From Nitrospirota bacterium (GTDB taxonomy: Bacteria; Nitrospirota; Leptospirillia; Leptospirillales; Leptospirillaceae), in assembly GCA_021806225.1 (NCBI GenBank), contig JAJZXW010000039.1, forward strand, positions 1 through 64,000: a stretch of 64,000 nt of DNA. Reading direction: 5' to 3'. The notes under the pieces are model-generated. The model made no database searches. It was not told where the DNA came from and saw only the letters and a list, made by a program, of their open reading frames with translations. This document shows, piece by piece, positions 9,301 through 16,994 of the stretch (positions are counted from its first letter, which is position 1; the number at the start of each line of letters is the position of its first letter). The position numbers and the translations under genes are program-made.

Positions 9301-9405
9301 CCTTGAATAGGTCCTGAGATGCAATGGGGCTAAGGTAACATAATTGAGGAAAAGGGGAAAGCCTCCCGGGGCGAGAGAGAGACCGGCCGGGTGAAGGGCC
9401 TGTTG

Positions 9406-9725
9406 TCACTCTCCGCCCAGCCGCTCAAGCTGCTCGAGAACCCCCTGGCTCGCCTTGTCCATGACCTTGAGCGCAGCGAGGGCTTCCTCGAAGCGGTTTT
9501 CGAAGAACCGCGCCACCGCCTCCTGGCCGAAGCGGTGAATCTCCGCATGCGGACGCTCGAGATCCCTGAAGGCCGTTCGCTCCGAGAGCTTGCACCACTC
9601 TCCATCGTAGTACCATTTTCCCAGACGACAGCTCCGGTGGTTCGAAAAGGACTCCGCCTTCTTGTCGAAAAGAGCGAATCTGCAAAATTCTCCTGTTGGT
9701 TGTGTTCCCTGGAGCAGGCGATCAT
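9406..9725 (-). pseudogene. CZB (chemoreceptor zinc-binding) domain gene, frame disrupted or unusual start
   Basis: Reading the minus strand to TGA 9408-9406 gives a clear CZB domain: NHRSCRLGKWYYDGEW, then RPHAEIH (HxxxH) and a final helix ending LERLGGE. CZB domains bind zinc through a first-helix His, the Cys of CxLGxW and the HxxxH pair. The frame is open back to a TGA at 9831-9829 but has no ATG, GTG or TTG. A start ATG at 9725 lies in a neighbouring frame and encodes REHNQQENFADSLF, which would join the CZB frame by a -1 shift in a TTTT run near 9665. So this is a one-base-deleted gene, a programmed frameshift, a CTG start, or a sequencing error. It lies directly upstream of cheZ. Confidence 0.6.
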
Positions 9726-9796
9726 GGTGGTCAGCCGTCCATGGCCCCGCCCTTACTTTTCGGAAAGAAAAGCGATCTCTTGAGCGTCGATCCTGA

Positions 9797-10198
9797 TCAG
9801 AGCCTCCGGATCTCTCCCGGCCGGCAGGTCAGAAAGGAAAGGGCGTGGACCACGAGCCGGTACCGGTTGATGCCCGGCGAGAGGGTGACCGTTCCCCTGA
9901 CGGGGCACATGGTCGTGGGTGCGGTGCGGAGCCGGTAGTCCCCAGGCGGAAGGGTCGCCTCGAATCGTCCGTCGATCCGGGTCATCAATTCGATTTCCCG
10001 TCGGGAAGGGCCGGACAGGGGGCGCAGAAAAAGGGCCGCCTTCCCGATCGGTTTCCCGTTCCAGAGCATGCGTCCCTGGAAACGGGCCTTCGACCCTTCG
10101 GAGGAAGGGATGCCGGCATCGGGGTGGTGGCAGGCGGCGAGGAAGAGGGGGAGAGCCAGAATGATCGGGGTAAGGAGGCGGGCACGGGGACGCATCAT
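9797..10198 (-). CDS. Small lipoprotein with carboxypeptidase-regulatory-like fold
   Basis: A 133-residue exported lipoprotein. The N-terminus is basic and hydrophobic with a lipobox ending LAAC (Cys 23). The mature part resembles a carboxypeptidase-regulatory / peptidase-associated beta-sandwich: GRMLWNGKPIGKAALFL followed by RIDGRFEATLPPGDYRLR, the pattern by which this fold is recognised. Two further cysteines lie near residues 96 and 122. The gene overlaps the preceding DUF692/MNIO-like gene by 4 nt, so it is co-translated with it. Periplasmic or outer-membrane location is inferred from the lipobox. Confidence 0.7.
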   Translation of the reverse strand: MMRPRARLLTPIILALPLFLAACHHPDAGIPSSEGSKARFQGRMLWNGKPIGKAALFLRPLSGPSRREIELMTRIDGRFEATLPPGDYRLRTAPTTMCPVRGTVTLSPGINRYRLVVHALSFLTCRPGEIRRL

Positions 10199-11583
10199 AG
10201 AGGATCTCCATTATACTGGGTTTGGGCGTCCATAAGAAGTCGGACCTCTTTTTCAGCGGCCGCCCGGACGGGGTCGAAGGAAGGGCCCCTCTCTCGGGCA
10301 AGGGTCTCGATCCATTCGGAGATGCGAAGAAGCTTAATTTCGAGGAAGTCCATCGGTCTCAGGAGGCTTCTCGGATGGAGGTTGAAATAGGAAACGAAGG
10401 ATGAACGGGGGTCCACTCCTCTCTGTTCGAGAAGGGAGAGTGTTTCGGGAAGGATGGCCGGCATGGCCCCTCCAAAAGACCAGATCTCTTCAGCATAGAG
10501 ACAGCGGGCGTAGGGGGAATCCGGGGATCCCGCCATGGAGCGTCCCAAGGCGCGGTACCCGCCTCTCAGGCGCGACTCGGCTTCGGGGGTGAGGGGGACC
10601 GGCGGAGCCGGAGGAGACGGCGGAAGAGGTCTCCCTCCCGGCCGGGCCGTCCGGACGACGATTTCGTGGAAGCGGGAGAACTCACGGGCAATCGTGCAAA
10701 GCGCCTTGTTGTCGACCTCCAGGGCGACTCCGGCCAAAGACGGCAGGGCCAGGTCCCGCAGGACCGACTCGAGGCACTCGAACAGAAGATCCGGAACGGC
10801 TTCCGTATGGTCGTCGATCAGCGCTTGAAAAGGGGCCTGTAGGGGGGGCTTAGGGGCGGGAAGTGTCCGTGCGGCCAGTCCCCCCACATGAATCTCGACG
10901 ACCCGGTCCAGGGGAAAGGAGTTCCGCAGCCATTCCACAAGGGAGGAGGGGGTGGCGGAGCATCCCGCCACCGAGAGATAGGTGAGGCAGTGGCCGAGAT
11001 CGAGGCCGATTCCGAGAGGGGTTTCGCGGGTCAGGAGGTGGAAGAACTCACCGAGATCCAGGGGGCCGGGAGGGTGGGGTGGAAAGGGGGGCGTCTCGAC
11101 GAGAAGAAGGCGTCCCCCAAGGTTCTCCAGGAGATGGAGAGCTCCCCGCCGCGCCGCCAGGGCCCCTTCCAAGGTGAGGAGGGGAGGCGCGTAAAGCCCG
11201 AATGCGTATCCTTCCATCGTCTTCTGGGCACATTCGTGGATCATCCAGGGGGACTCCAGGGCCTCCATGTGACCTCTGGCCCTTTGGATCTCCTCCCGGT
11301 ACGCCGGATCGGACGGAAATTCGGCCTGCGTGTACCAGAGGCAGTCTCCGTGGTAGGCGAGGGGGATCTCCGCAGGGATTCTCCGTCGCGCCTCCGACAG
11401 ATCGGAGGTTCTTCCCCGGAACAACTCGAGATACTCAGGGGCAGGCCCGTCCGACAGAACCTCGAGAAGATCCTCGAAAGGGGGGGAGTAGAGGTCGGTG
11501 GACAGGCCGACCCTTGGGCGGGGGAAGAGGGCGCATTCGGAAGGGATCTCTGCAAAGTGGGGGGGAGGAAAAATGGGTCTCAA
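10195..11583 (-). CDS. DUF692 / MNIO-like metal enzyme with C-terminal extension
   Basis: A 462-residue protein. Residues 1-300 follow the TIM-barrel pattern of DUF692 (multinuclear non-heme iron-dependent oxidases, MNIO): VGLSTDLYSP, EYLELF, AYHGDCLW, WMIHE, the spacing from APPLLTLEGAL to LLLVETPPF, GIGLDLGHC, VVEIHVGG and IDDHTEAVPD. The His, Glu and Asp at these sites are the expected metal ligands. Known MNIO enzymes modify cysteines or other side chains of ribosomal peptides together with a partner protein. Residues about 325-462 are an extra domain I cannot assign. The start is TTG 11583 with a weak ribosome site. A xylose-isomerase-like barrel is the main alternative. Confidence 0.6.
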   Translation of the reverse strand: MRPIFPPPHFAEIPSECALFPRPRVGLSTDLYSPPFEDLLEVLSDGPAPEYLELFRGRTSDLSEARRRIPAEIPLAYHGDCLWYTQAEFPSDPAYREEIQRARGHMEALESPWMIHECAQKTMEGYAFGLYAPPLLTLEGALAARRGALHLLENLGGRLLLVETPPFPPHPPGPLDLGEFFHLLTRETPLGIGLDLGHCLTYLSVAGCSATPSSLVEWLRNSFPLDRVVEIHVGGLAARTLPAPKPPLQAPFQALIDDHTEAVPDLLFECLESVLRDLALPSLAGVALEVDNKALCTIAREFSRFHEIVVRTARPGGRPLPPSPPAPPVPLTPEAESRLRGGYRALGRSMAGSPDSPYARCLYAEEIWSFGGAMPAILPETLSLLEQRGVDPRSSFVSYFNLHPRSLLRPMDFLEIKLLRISEWIETLARERGPSFDPVRAAAEKEVRLLMDAQTQYNGDPL

Positions 11584-11761: not shown

Positions 11762-12454
11762 TTGGCCAAGGAGACGGGGATTCACCCCTCCGGGATTCGG
11801 GAGCAGGATGAGACGACGGACCGGTGCGTCCAGAGGAAGCGGGAAATTCTCGACGCGGCCCTCTCCTGCTTTTCCGACGAGGGTTACTTCCAGACCACCA
11901 ACCGGAAGATCGCCCGCAAGGCCGGCATAACCGAAGGGCTGATCTATCATTATTTCCCCAGCAAAAAAGCCCTGCTCCAGGAAATCATCCTGGAAAAATT
12001 CAGCCGGGATTCTTCACCGGCCCAGCAGTGCTATGCGCGCTGGGAGCCTGTCTTTGCCAAGACCCCTCCGGACAGCGGGAGCTTTCGGGAGTTTCTCCGG
12101 GATCTCGGGCGGGCGACCTTCGAAGGGCTGGAACGGCACCGTGACGTCCTCAGGATTCTCCTGAGCGAGTACCGTCTTCTCGATGACGGCGCCGAGCCCT
12201 TGTTCCCCCGGCTGGTCATGGAGCTCTCGACAAACCGTTTTTCGCGGATCCTCGAGCGATACCTCGAGGCGGCCGGGGCGGCGGACCGGAATCCGGCCAT
12301 GAAGGACGCATTCTTCCTGGGGCCGATCGTCTCCGTCTTCCTTTTTCAGGACCTTCTGCAGGGCCATCGGGTGAGGTCCCTGGACAGGGATCTTTTCCTC
12401 GGGACCCTGGTCGACCATTTCATGGCTGGAATCATCGGAATGCATCGGATCTGA
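11762..12454 (+). CDS. TetR-family transcriptional repressor
   Basis: A 230-residue TetR regulator. The N-terminal helix-turn-helix (about residues 25-70) reads KREILDAALSCF, then TTNRKIARKAGITEGLIYHYF and SKKALLQEI, the family signature. The C-terminal ligand domain is divergent, as usual. The TTG start at 11762 is supported by AGGAGGG four nt upstream. It heads an operon with a cytochrome, EmrA, EmrB and a TolC-family channel, and a palindrome sits at its own promoter, so it most likely represses the operon until an efflux substrate binds. Confidence 0.9.
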   Translation: MAKETGIHPSGIREQDETTDRCVQRKREILDAALSCFSDEGYFQTTNRKIARKAGITEGLIYHYFPSKKALLQEIILEKFSRDSSPAQQCYARWEPVFAKTPPDSGSFREFLRDLGRATFEGLERHRDVLRILLSEYRLLDDGAEPLFPRLVMELSTNRFSRILERYLEAAGAADRNPAMKDAFFLGPIVSVFLFQDLLQGHRVRSLDRDLFLGTLVDHFMAGIIGMHRI

Positions 12455-12491
12455 ACGCTAACCCAGACTTTTCAAGGATTGGACGACCAGG

Positions 12492-13091
12492 ATGAAGAGA
12501 ATGAGACAGGCATTGGTGGCGGTGATTCTTCTGCTGGCGGGAGGAGCCGGAGCCCTTCTCGAATCCGTTCACGCCCAGGCCGATTCGATACTGCACCGGT
12601 ACGTCGGAGTTGAAACCTGCGAGATTTGCCATTCCTCCCAGCGGATCGGCCGTCAGTTCTTCGTCTGGGCATCGAGCCCCCACGCCCGCGCCTATCGGGT
12701 TCTTTCATCCCCCGAGGCCCATGCGATCGCGGAAAAGCTTCATGTCGCCGATCCGACGAAGGATGGCCGCTGCCTGTCCTGCCATGTGACCGGCTACGGA
12801 AAACCTCTGCCGGAAATTCTTTCCACCTTCCGGATGACCGACGGCGTCCAGTGCGAATCTTGCCATGGGCCGGGGGAGGATTACGCCCATTTTTCGGTGA
12901 TGATCAGCCCCCGGAAATCGACCTTGGCCGGCCTGAACCTTCACCCTGACGAAGCGACCTGCAAGACCTGCCACAATCCTTCTTCCCCGACCTTCCGCGG
13001 CTTCGATTACCACCGGGCCCTCTCCGAGATCGCCCATCCCGTCCCGCCTCCCTACAAGAAGGAGACACTTGAAACGGGAGGGGAGCAATGA
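12492..13091 (+). CDS. Periplasmic tetraheme cytochrome c (c554-like)
   Basis: A 199-residue exported cytochrome. The signal peptide (about 1-28) is basic then hydrophobic, ending near VHAQA. Four CxxCH heme sites follow: CEICH, CLSCH, CESCH and CKTCH. Their spacing and the GVQCESCHGPG pattern resemble the cytochrome c554 family of multiheme electron carriers. It lies between the TetR gene and emrA and overlaps emrA by 4 nt (ATGA), so it is co-translated with an efflux pump, an unusual setting. A role in electron transfer in the periplasm is inferred; the partner is unknown. Confidence 0.85.
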   Translation: MKRMRQALVAVILLLAGGAGALLESVHAQADSILHRYVGVETCEICHSSQRIGRQFFVWASSPHARAYRVLSSPEAHAIAEKLHVADPTKDGRCLSCHVTGYGKPLPEILSTFRMTDGVQCESCHGPGEDYAHFSVMISPRKSTLAGLNLHPDEATCKTCHNPSSPTFRGFDYHRALSEIAHPVPPPYKKETLETGGEQ

Positions 13092-14047
13092 GCGAAACCC
13101 CCTCGCCGGGTCCACCGGTGCCGCTCTCCCGTAAACGGAAGGGGTTCATCATCGGCGGGGTCGGCCTTTTCGTCACCCTCGCCGTGATCCTGGTCTACCT
13201 TCGATACAACGCCTATTACGTGGAGACAGAAGATGCGATGGTCGACGGCAATATCGTGATCGTCTCCGCCAATACCCGGGGACGGGTCATGACCCTCCCC
13301 CTCAACATCGGGGATCCCGTCCACAAGGGGGACCTTCTGGCCCGGATCGACACCACCGGATTCTCCGCCCTCCAGACGATCGGTCAGCGGAATGTCTCGG
13401 CCTTCGGGGATCTCGCCCGCACCCGGGCGGAGGAGGTTTCTCTTGAGGTCAGGCTGGCCAATGCGAAACGGGATCTCGATCGGGGGGAGGCTCTCAGAAA
13501 AGGCGGGTTCATCACCGTCTCCGATCTCGACCATCTCCGGAGCGCCTATGATGATCTCAGAGCCCAGCTCGCGGAAATGAAAAAGCTCGAGTTCGTGAAC
13601 CGGACGGCATTGGAAACCACCGAATCCCACCCTCTGAACTATACGATCCACTCCCCCCTGGACGGCCAGGTGGCTGAACGCATCGCACAAGTCGGCCAGG
13701 TCGTCTCCCGCGGGCAGGCCGTGGTCTCGCTGGTCGACACGAAGGACACCTGGGTGACGGCCAAGGTCAAGGAGACGCGCATGGGCCATGTCCGGACCGG
13801 ACAGAAGGTGGACATCACGATCGACGCCTACCCGGGCCGGAGCTTTCACGGCCATGTCTACCAGATCCTCCCGACATCGGCGGCGGCCATCTCCCTTCTC
13901 CCCCCCGAAAACGCTTCTGGAACCTTCGTGAAGGTCACCCAGCGCGTTCCGGTCCGCATCACGATCGATGACGGGAAGGATGTGGTCCTGAGGCCGGGTC
14001 TCTCCACCGAAATCCGGATCCATATCAAGGAAGGATCCCCATGGTGA
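13088..14047 (+). CDS. emrA: EmrA/HlyD-type membrane fusion protein
   Basis: The periplasmic adaptor that links an inner-membrane MFS pump to an outer-membrane channel. One N-terminal membrane anchor (about residues 19-38) is followed by the beta-barrel/lipoyl halves: VETEDAMVDGNIVIVSANTRGRV, a coiled-coil hairpin near 105-170, then INSPLDG-type sequence IHSPLDGQVAERI with GQVV, matching EmrA. At 319 residues it is shorter than E. coli EmrA (390), with a shorter hairpin. The gene overlaps emrB by 7 nt. Confidence 0.9.
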   Translation: MSETPSPGPPVPLSRKRKGFIIGGVGLFVTLAVILVYLRYNAYYVETEDAMVDGNIVIVSANTRGRVMTLPLNIGDPVHKGDLLARIDTTGFSALQTIGQRNVSAFGDLARTRAEEVSLEVRLANAKRDLDRGEALRKGGFITVSDLDHLRSAYDDLRAQLAEMKKLEFVNRTALETTESHPLNYTIHSPLDGQVAERIAQVGQVVSRGQAVVSLVDTKDTWVTAKVKETRMGHVRTGQKVDITIDAYPGRSFHGHVYQILPTSAAAISLLPPENASGTFVKVTQRVPVRITIDDGKDVVLRPGLSTEIRIHIKEGSPW

Positions 14048-15630
14048 AGGGGGACGACGGGAGCCTGTTCGGAGAGTCCCCCCATTACCGCTGGTGGGCT
14101 CTGACGGTGGTGATGCTCTCGCTCTTCCTCCCGGTCCTCGACACGACGATCGTCAATGTGGCGCTTCCCTACATGATGGGAAGCCTCGACACCAACCAGG
14201 ATGAGGTTCGCTGGGTCATCACCGCCTATTCCATGGCCTTCGCCGTCGCCACTCTCGCCAGCGCCTGGACGCGCACGGTCTTCGGGATCAAGAATCTCTA
14301 TCTGGGCTCGATCTTCCTCTTTGTCCTCTCCTCGTTCTTCGCCGGCATCTCCCCCAACCTGAACGTGATGATCCTCTTCCGGATCCTCCAGGCGGTGGGA
14401 GGAGGGATCATGATGCCCCTCGGCTTTACCATCATCACCGAGGCCTTTCCCCCCGCCGAGCGTCCCAAGGCCTTTGGTTTTTTCGGGATCGTCGTCGTCC
14501 TGGCCCCCACGATCGGGCCGATCCTGGGGGGATGGCTGGTCGACAACCTCAACTGGAGGGACGTCTTCTTCATCAACGTTCCCTTTGGAATTCTGAGCTT
14601 TTTCTTTACCGTACTCGTCCTGAAAAAGGATCGGGAGCATATCCTCGTTCCCTTCGACTACGCGGGATTCATTTCTCTGGGGACGGCCCTCTCCTTCCTT
14701 CTCGTGGGTCTGACCGAGGGGGAGCGCTGGGGGTGGACCGCCTTCTTCGTCTACGAATGCTGGACCGTCGCCGCCATCGCCTTCTGGATCTACATCATGA
14801 CCGCCTTCGCCGTCCGCCATCCCCTGATCGACCTCTCCATCTTTCGCGATCTCGATTTCAGCCTCATCATGATCGCCAATTTTTTTCGGGCGGTCGGTCT
14901 CTTCGGACGGATGTTCCTGCTGCCCCTTTTCGTCCAGACCTTCAACGCCTTCACGGCCACGGACGCCGGCCTTGTCCTTCTTCCCTCCTCCCTCATGGCC
15001 GGGGTGGCCATGCCGATTCTGGGAAGCCTGTCGGCGAAGGGATCGGACACCTTCAAGCGGATCCTTCTTGTAAGCGGCTTCCTGATGCTGGCTTTTTCCC
15101 AGTTTCTTTTCGCCTTTCTCACGAATGTCCCGATAATGAGCCAGATCATCGTCGCCCAGCTGGTTTTCGGTCTCTCGATGGGAATGCTGAACGCTCTTCT
15201 CTCCTCCATTCCCCAGACCCTTGTGGAGCCCCGCCTCATCGGTCTCGCCTCCAGCCTCCAGAGCAACATGCTCCAGATCGGAGGGGCACTGGGGGTGGCC
15301 GTCCTGGGAAATTTCCTTGACCATCAGGAGGCTGACTACTATGCGCGCTACCAGTCGGATGTGACGCACCACTCCTATTTTTACCAGCGCGTGGCGGACT
15401 TCTTCACCCAGTCCGCCATGCACGGAAATATCGCCGATGTACCGGCCCGCGTCGGAGCCATGGTCACGAATTCCGCCATGGCCCAGGCGGCCATCTCCGG
15501 ATACAACGAAACATTCATCGCCGCCGGTCTGATGGCCCTTCTGGGGATTCCCATGATTCTCCTGATGAAAAGGCTGTCCCACCGGGGGGGCAAAGCGCAA
15601 CCTGATGCGGTTCATGGAGGAATCGAGTGA
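14041..15630 (+). CDS. emrB: EmrB/QacA-type MFS drug efflux transporter (DHA2)
   Basis: A 529-residue inner-membrane proton-driven exporter of the 14-helix DHA2 family. It has LDTTIVNVALPYM in the first helix (DHA2 motif D1), a motif C region with APTIGPILGGWL in helix 5, and WRDVFFINVPFG after it, all typical of EmrB. It sits between its adaptor gene and a TolC-family gene, so the three should form a tripartite pump through both membranes. Substrate unknown; hydrophobic toxicants are typical for the family. The stop overlaps the next start (GTGA). Confidence 0.93.
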   Translation: MVKGDDGSLFGESPHYRWWALTVVMLSLFLPVLDTTIVNVALPYMMGSLDTNQDEVRWVITAYSMAFAVATLASAWTRTVFGIKNLYLGSIFLFVLSSFFAGISPNLNVMILFRILQAVGGGIMMPLGFTIITEAFPPAERPKAFGFFGIVVVLAPTIGPILGGWLVDNLNWRDVFFINVPFGILSFFFTVLVLKKDREHILVPFDYAGFISLGTALSFLLVGLTEGERWGWTAFFVYECWTVAAIAFWIYIMTAFAVRHPLIDLSIFRDLDFSLIMIANFFRAVGLFGRMFLLPLFVQTFNAFTATDAGLVLLPSSLMAGVAMPILGSLSAKGSDTFKRILLVSGFLMLAFSQFLFAFLTNVPIMSQIIVAQLVFGLSMGMLNALLSSIPQTLVEPRLIGLASSLQSNMLQIGGALGVAVLGNFLDHQEADYYARYQSDVTHHSYFYQRVADFFTQSAMHGNIADVPARVGAMVTNSAMAQAAISGYNETFIAAGLMALLGIPMILLMKRLSHRGGKAQPDAVHGGIE

Positions 15631-16994
15631 GAGATCGAGGGATCATGCTGGCAATGGGCACTCTCTGGGCGATGGTGGTTTTCGCTCAGCCGGTCCTTGC
15701 GGAGGATTCGGGAGGAGCACCTCCCGAATCCTCGTCCCCGGAGTTGTCCGGACAGACCATTTCCTTCAGGGAGGCCGTATCGGAGGCGCTCCAGAGACGT
15801 CCATCGCTCAAGGCCTTTTCAGAACAGGTCAAGGCCTCTCGGGAACGGATCGGTGAGTCCAAATCCGGCTACTTTCCCAACCTCTCCGCATCCTATTCGG
15901 ATACGCTCGGAAACAGCCTCTTCGGATTCTTTCTGATTCCGGGATACCAGTACGCCAACTACAATCTCCTGACAGTCGGACTCACCCAAACCGTGCTGGA
16001 CTTCGGACGGGTCCATTCCCAGGTCCGCCAAAGCCGCCATCAGCTCAAGTCAGTGCAGGCCGAGAAACTTCGGACGGTCCAGGGGGTCATCCGGGATGTC
16101 GAGGTGGCCTATTTCAATCTTCTGAAGGCCCAGCACCGCCTTCTGTCGGCCCGGCAGAGCCTCGTTGATGCCGGTTCCCATCTCGACGAAGCACGTGCGA
16201 GGGTGGCGGCGGGGGTTGGGCTTCGTCTCGACGTCACCCAGGCCAAGGTCAACTATGAATCGGCCCGGCTCGACCTCATCCATGAGATGACCGGTCTCAG
16301 AAAAGCCCAGGTGGATCTTGGCCGGGCGATCGGATTCCGCCACCGGAAACCCTTCGTGGCCTCCGATCCGGCGGGGGAATCCGTCTCGTCCCGCGTTGAC
16401 CCGGAAGCGGATATCTCCAAATACCTTCCGACCCACCCCGACCTTCTGGCCGATGCCGAAACGGTCCAAAGCCGGAAGGCCAGCCTCGACGCCTCGAAGG
16501 ATCAGAACTATCCGACCATCACTGGCTCTGCCCAGTATTATCTGGCCCAGATTTCGATTTCCTTCTTCGGACTTCCGACCTCGCCATTTTCCACATTCAA
16601 TGTGGGAGGATTGCTGAATGTTCCGATCTTCGAGGGGGGCCTCGCCACCCATCAGATCCATGAAGCGCGGGCCAATCTGAGACAGTCGATGCACCTGAAG
16701 GAAGACGACGAAGTCCGTCTCATGGCGGGGATCCGCGATGCCGCCGAAGATGTTCGGGAGGCCCGGGAACGATTGCGCGAAACCCGGACCGCCCTGGACA
16801 ATGCCGAAGAAAATGACCGCCTGATCGAGGCGGCCTATCGCGTGGGAACGGCGCATTCGGTTGATGTCGTCGATGCCGAGACCGCGCTCAGGCGGGCCCG
16901 TGTCAATGTCGATTCGGCACGCTTCGACCTTCTTTCGGCTCTGGTCGCCTACCATTACGCCCTCGGAACACTGTCTCCGTCCGACACGCCCTGA
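15627..16994 (+). CDS. TolC-family outer-membrane efflux channel
   Basis: A 455-residue outer-membrane efflux protein. A signal peptide (about 1-25, ending VLAED) is followed by two OEP repeats: [19 protein letters not shown] starts the first, and the long helices ([38 protein letters not shown]) are characteristic of TolC barrels with a periplasmic tunnel. The start is GTG 15627, overlapping the emrB stop; the stop overlaps the rnhA start as TGATG. It completes the efflux system of the operon. Confidence 0.92.

Follow-up and report, generated by a model that had tools for sequence, protein, structure and literature searches.

Characterised MNIO enzymes are known from peptide natural-product clusters. 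In those of the ChrH subfamily the barrel is fused at its C terminus to a helical bundle; DybH functions with no partner protein, MelH requires MelHc, which is the same domain made as a separate protein, and some precursors of the subfamily are lipoproteins (PMC12636315). ChrH is reported to retain the canonical ligands (PMC10214503). A survey of the MNIO landscape describes nitroreductase fusions and partner proteins lacking an RRE, and its main text contains no word starting with 'Nitrospir' (PMC12452194). A literature search joining DUF692 and Nitrospira found nothing, and Nitrospirota were not mentioned in the MNIO literature searched. Here we analysed an MNIO-like gene in a stretch of 64,000 nucleotides (the window; positions 1 to 64,000 of contig JAJZXW010000039.1, assembly GCA_021806225.1) from a Nitrospirota bacterium of the family Leptospirillaceae, whose draft assembly of 1.43 Mb is 66.65% complete. 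The gene lies on the reverse strand (10195..11583) as an open reading frame (ORF) with a TTG start and single-copy orthologues, and encodes 462 residues that comprise a barrel domain (residues ~22-315; 10639..11520) and a C-terminal helical domain (residues 325-462; 10198..10611). With a probability of roughly 0.6, we read it as a divergent, partner-fused MNIO, a core single-copy enzyme with an altered iron site that would act on a protein or peptide encoded elsewhere.

The initial annotation had recognised a DUF692-type barrel in this gene, and both profile and fold comparisons bear this out, placing the predicted barrel in the MNIO superfamily as a divergent member. Residues 69-293 of the window protein match PF05114 (MbnB_TglH_ChrH) at E 6e-5 and 22.8 bits, and all 15 diverse relatives scanned, the window protein included, match it at E <= 0.1, the best reaching 67 bits against a cut-off of 25. 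AP_endonuc_2 (PF01261) was matched by two of these 15 and far more weakly (best E 0.0025). The matches in NCBIfam were almost all to MNIO models, together with one weak match to CbiR, and since the best scores stay far below the cut-offs (BufB 56.5 bits against 310, ApyH 46.4 against 400, HvfB 31.2 against 360, ChrH 20.7 against 600), the enzyme family is an unnamed subfamily. A profile built from 22 relatives retrieves the Protein Data Bank (PDB) entry 3bww along with TglH and MbnB. The AlphaFold2 model of the full protein (predicted local distance difference test, pLDDT, 90.4; predicted template modelling score, pTM, 0.90) is closest to TglH (Z 23.4, root-mean-square deviation 3.1, 264 residues aligned) and MbnB (Z 23.3, 2.5, 258 aligned). 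The seven MNIO entries in the PDB fall at Z 21.3-23.4 and the first barrel of another kind at 17.7, an order with which Foldseek concurs. A midpoint-rooted barrel tree parts the 38 members of the family from the 22 other MNIOs (support 0.77). In four comparisons the ratio of nonsynonymous to synonymous substitution rates (dN/dS) was 0.12-0.17 in the barrel and 0.18-0.26 in the C-terminal domain, which indicates that both domains are under purifying selection, and the ORF is therefore not a chance one.

The metal site departs from that of the described enzymes. In VcMbnB the ligands are His55, His91, Glu135, Asp165, Asn168, His194, Asp209 and Glu238, and Asp240 is required for activity (PMC8888699); TglH has equivalent ligands, His231 among them (PMC10880893). 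We aligned 38 full-length relatives with hmmalign on a profile built from 22 other MNIOs, each of which has the canonical residues. His78, Glu163, Asp195, His232, Asp257, His259, Glu289 and Asp291 are invariant in the 38 relatives, His78 (11350..11352, reverse strand) being the counterpart of the first canonical histidine, VcMbnB His55. The expectation of metal-ligand positions was therefore borne out for most residues and not for all, as seven of the nine members of the canonical set (His55, His91, Glu135, Asp165, Asn168, His194, Asp209, His211, Glu238) are kept. The other two positions appear to be changed. The second histidine, VcMbnB His91, is replaced by Glu117 (11233..11235, reverse strand) in the motif HECAxK, with a register that could be off by one residue, and the asparagine of site 3, VcMbnB Asn168, by His198 (10990..10992, reverse strand) in LDxGH. 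Both residues are themselves invariant in the 38 relatives; His198 occupies the Asn168 column in 37 of them, and at the His91 column 28 have Glu117, nine a gap and one a histidine. BLASTP, hhalign and hmmalign alike place the canonical histidine on Glu117, which is the last residue of a predicted strand, as are His78, Glu163, Asp195, Asp257 and Glu289. One residue away stand His116 (34/38; Gln in three, Leu in one) and Cys118 (38/38), and anchoring on Glu163 alone would favour Cys118 as the counterpart. The placement by hmmalign is imperfect, the Glu135 column holding glutamate in 9/38, with a one-residue shift in the others, and the Glu238 column holding it in 23/38 with a gap in 15/38. Judged from its aligned ligand set, the enzyme is not a canonical MNIO. 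Both changes fall at sites that matter, since electron nuclear double resonance (ENDOR) of MbnB assigns the iron that binds the substrate thiolate to the two-histidine site 1, and mutation of site-3 residues abolishes the activity of HvfB (PMC13419390); from this we infer that they may have a functional meaning.

The replacement at site 3 also lends itself to another explanation, that the protein is no longer a peptide oxidase and belongs instead with the metal-dependent hydrolases, isomerases or lyases of the wider superfamily of xylose-isomerase/endonuclease IV barrels. The change from asparagine to histidine yields a DxxH pattern, which is also found in endonuclease IV, the wider barrel superfamily is matched at Z about 16-17.7, and the gene is a conserved core gene that has no peptide-precursor context. 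We consider this explanation unlikely, though the strongest of the rivals, given that every MNIO structure outranks all other barrels, that PF05114 is matched throughout the relatives scanned while AP_endonuc_2 is matched weakly in two, and that NCBIfam points nearly always to MNIO models.

About 135 residues had been noted beyond the barrel, and these form a domain of their own. Predicted alone from 39 sequences, residues 325-462 fold into a compact domain of seven helices (pLDDT 89, pTM 0.75). Pfam and NCBIfam scans of the 39 members gave scattered matches only, each family being hit in one to three of them, and the matches that hmmsearch returned for the domain were set aside as noise. Against the PDB, Foldseek gave nothing at E <= 0.001 and VIA-align a best Z of 4.9, so no known fold was recognised, which does not imply that the fold is new. 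Among 118 genomes the domain occurs in 43, once in each and always inside the enzyme ORF (43/43), and in none of the remaining 75. Patristic distances of the barrel and of the C-terminal domain are correlated at r 0.905 (703 pairs, 38 sequences). One genome (G271) encodes the two domains as overlapping ORFs, of which the second starts at an ATG of its own (locus L100, 5976-7360); because the gene is present in one of the three genomes of its family, a natural split looks the same as a sequencing frameshift.

These observations bear on the proposal of the initial annotation that the extension may replace the separate partner of other MNIOs. The domain is exclusive to the enzyme and co-inherited with the barrel, and none of the 21 Leptospirillaceae genomes has a PF09836 (DUF2063) gene. 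ChrH and DybH, whose fused helical domain serves as the partner, offer a close published parallel (PMC12636315). The proposal is strengthened to this extent and stays a conditional one as regards what the domain does: it would act as a built-in partner that positions the substrate, so that no separate partner protein would be needed. The comparison with DUF2063 partners gave a mixed result. A rival reading of this domain only takes it for a DUF2063-type helical partner domain that has diverged strongly and lacks an RRE, a kind of partner protein that has been described (PMC12452194), and hhalign does align the two at a score of 20.2 over 98 colinear columns, above all of 200 column shuffles (maximum 19.1). 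We hold this to be improbable, since 3 of 102 unrelated control windows score equally high, none of the 39 members matches PF09836 in Pfam, and the MNIO partner proteins (NGO1945/TglI fold) are absent from the Foldseek listing for the domain.

The fused gene was found in 26 of 61 relatives, namely in all 21 genomes of the window's own family, in all five of family f10, which we take to be Nitrospiraceae from GTDB taxonomy and from its breadth, and in none of the other 35. Across Nitrospirota it was present in 107 of 295 genomes; a single ORF spans the profile in 100, and the remaining seven comprise copies at contig ends, copies that are split or broken, and one ordinary MNIO. Genome G124 has a broken copy of the enzyme gene. 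Within the class of genome G053, which holds the Nitrospiraceae, it was found in 174 of 246 genomes, a count that includes a few weak or partial matches, and mainly in families f10, f18 and f39. The gene is single-copy, and the second matches examined were ordinary MNIOs or pieces at contig ends. A contig scan by exact peptide patterns returned only 14 Nitrospirota loci, such patterns limiting its reach outside the phylum. The window protein had no match in a plasmid search, in which a Nitrospirota relative recovered ordinary DUF692 enzymes over the barrel region only; a phage search gave no match, and no match was confirmed in a scan of IMG/VR. Ordinary BufB-type MNIO clusters with DUF2063 partners are also present in some Nitrospirota, so the two kinds of enzyme coexist. 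Two Nitrospiraceae loci from genomes that have the fused enzyme as well (L118 5995-8612 and L119 4687-7193) hold bufferin-type clusters of an exported cysteine-containing protein, an MNIO, a DUF2063 protein and, by position, a DoxX-like protein.

The surroundings of the fused gene differ from family to family. In f10 it usually stands ahead of a tRNA-dihydrouridine-synthase-like gene and a Maf-like one, and in f18 behind two glutamate-synthase-like genes; in Leptospirillaceae CheZ lies downstream of it, whether or not a lipoprotein gene intervenes. CheZ was named by an annotation scan, and the other names are our own presumptive assignments from sequence. No neighbour is common to all families, and the neighbourhoods compared contain no small cysteine-rich precursor, from which it follows that the enzyme does not travel as a biosynthetic cluster. 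As the neighbours differ by family, a conserved neighbour was rejected as the substrate. The same applies to an exported protein encoded downstream in Nitrospiraceae, which is found in f10 and f18, weakly in f39, and in none of five Leptospirillaceae tested. That protein (L050 12836-13483 and its equivalents) has cysteines in the motifs PCGAS and QLCGDDEY. A ChrH-type precursor seems unlikely as well, the CPxCGMG-stop motif being missing from all 11 genomes in a search limited to this variant of the motif.

The nearest candidate for a substrate was the lipoprotein encoded next to the enzyme (9797..10198, reverse strand; 133 residues). As the initial annotation had it, the two genes overlap by four nucleotides (ATGA, 10195..10198), the lipoprotein starting at 10198 and the enzyme stop codon occupying 10195-10197, and the lipoprotein has two cysteines besides its lipobox. 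Cys23 of the lipobox, Cys98 and Cys125 are all invariant in the nine homologues aligned, and dN/dS of the lipoprotein is 0.20-0.34 (three comparisons). It resembles CarboxypepD_reg (E 0.001 for the window lipoprotein; 38.5 bits for a long homologue against a cut-off of 32.3), and a similar cysteine pair recurs in the second domain of long two-domain homologues. That the pair is repeated where the CarboxypepD_reg-like domain is duplicated points to a structural disulfide. The lipoprotein had been put forward as the enzyme's substrate or periplasmic receiver; on that view Cys98 or Cys125 would be modified before export. The overlap, the conserved cysteines and a linkage in 16 of the 19 Leptospirillaceae loci with a readable neighbour favour this idea, and some MNIOs are described as modifying lipoprotein precursors (PMC12636315). 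Conservation of the pair ends there: in genus g3 the homologue sits at another locus in all three genomes (G015, G019, G020), and it is missing in 13 of 13 genomes tested from other families that carry the enzyme. Genome G014 gave no lipoprotein match, its contig stopping right after the enzyme. The lipoprotein sequence also has no CPxCGxG tail. The distribution rules it out as a universal partner and, together with the disulfide-like cysteines, makes it a poor candidate for a general substrate. We therefore abandon the proposed role, which seems to us very unlikely; the lipoprotein is probably not the target of the enzyme and most likely an unremarkable periplasmic lipoprotein, transcribed together with the enzyme gene in part of one family.

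Several results weigh against a partner-fused MNIO. The window protein itself, at 22.8 bits, scores just under the PF05114 cut-off, and the changes at two ligand positions could go with other metals or with a non-oxidative chemistry. Neither the neighbourhoods, nor the downstream exported protein, nor the CPxCGMG search yielded a substrate, a precursor or a shared operon partner. The C-terminal domain has no DUF2063 similarity detectable by Pfam, and the profile hint towards DUF2063 is weak, being equalled among the control windows. Even so, we regard it as likely that the enzyme works like a partner-fused MNIO. It would be a divergent, lineage-specific iron enzyme of the MNIO type, kept as a core gene, one copy per genome, in Leptospirillaceae and Nitrospiraceae, in which glutamate may stand for the second histidine of site 1 and histidine for the asparagine of site 3, and its most likely role would be the oxidative modification of a protein or peptide whose gene lies elsewhere and which both lineages conserve.

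The characterised MNIOs belong to peptide natural-product clusters, whereas the fused enzyme is vertically kept and cluster-free. It is possible, and we suggest it tentatively, that an MNIO-like clade has left natural-product biosynthesis and become a core enzyme whose partner domain is undescribed and whose iron centre is rewired, catalysing a new oxidation of a conserved cellular protein. The gene occurs in nearly every Leptospirillaceae genome and in most genomes sampled from the Nitrospiraceae class; if this reading is true, its chemistry would serve a general function in nitrite and iron oxidisers. The altered ligand set also offers a ready natural test of the roles of the second histidine and the third iron site.

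Two other features of the window adjoin these genes. Genes for a TetR regulator, a Cytochrome_C554-type cytochrome, HlyD, MFS and OEP proteins are tightly packed into a divergent unit (11762-16994), which is kept as a block beside the enzyme at most loci from the window's genus; an efflux operon is an odd setting for a multihaem-like cytochrome. Two antiparallel, overlapping ORFs (9330-9783) that lie between the lipoprotein gene and CheZ have no Pfam match, and homologous stretches occur in several relatives.

Compared with the described systems, the enzyme differs in its setting from BufB, which uses a DUF2063 partner. Both belong to the same Pfam family, and a Nitrospirota relative shares 26% identity over 264 residues with a plasmid DUF692 enzyme of a bufferin-like cluster by BLASTP, but the BufB model scores 56.5 bits at best, and BufB-type clusters include an exported cysteine-containing protein, a DUF2063-type gene and a DoxX gene where the fused enzyme is free of any cluster. 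MbnBC and TglHI are the closest solved folds (Z 22-23; PMC8888699, PMC10880893). The positions of MbnB His55, Glu135, Asp165, His194, Asp209, His211, Glu238 and Asp240 are kept here, unlike those of His91 and Asn168, which correspond to Glu117 and His198, and the partner is a separate gene there and a fused domain here. Membership of the ChrH subfamily, with action on a CPxCGxG-tailed precursor, is highly improbable, and the least likely of the alternatives; the enzyme is set apart by its NF050165 score and its aligned ligands. That model reaches at most 20.7 of the 600 bits required, over the barrel only, with its best stretches ending by profile position 277 of 363. ChrH is reported to have canonical ligands (PMC10214503), in contrast to the two substitutions here, and the present gene is a single-copy core gene outside any biosynthetic cluster, in genomes of which the 11 searched lack a CPxCGMG-tailed precursor. 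What it does share with the ChrH subfamily as described is its layout, a barrel joined at the C terminus to a helical bundle in the absence of a partner gene, and the separate polypeptide that supplies this domain to MelH as MelHc (PMC12636315) compares with the two-ORF form in G271.
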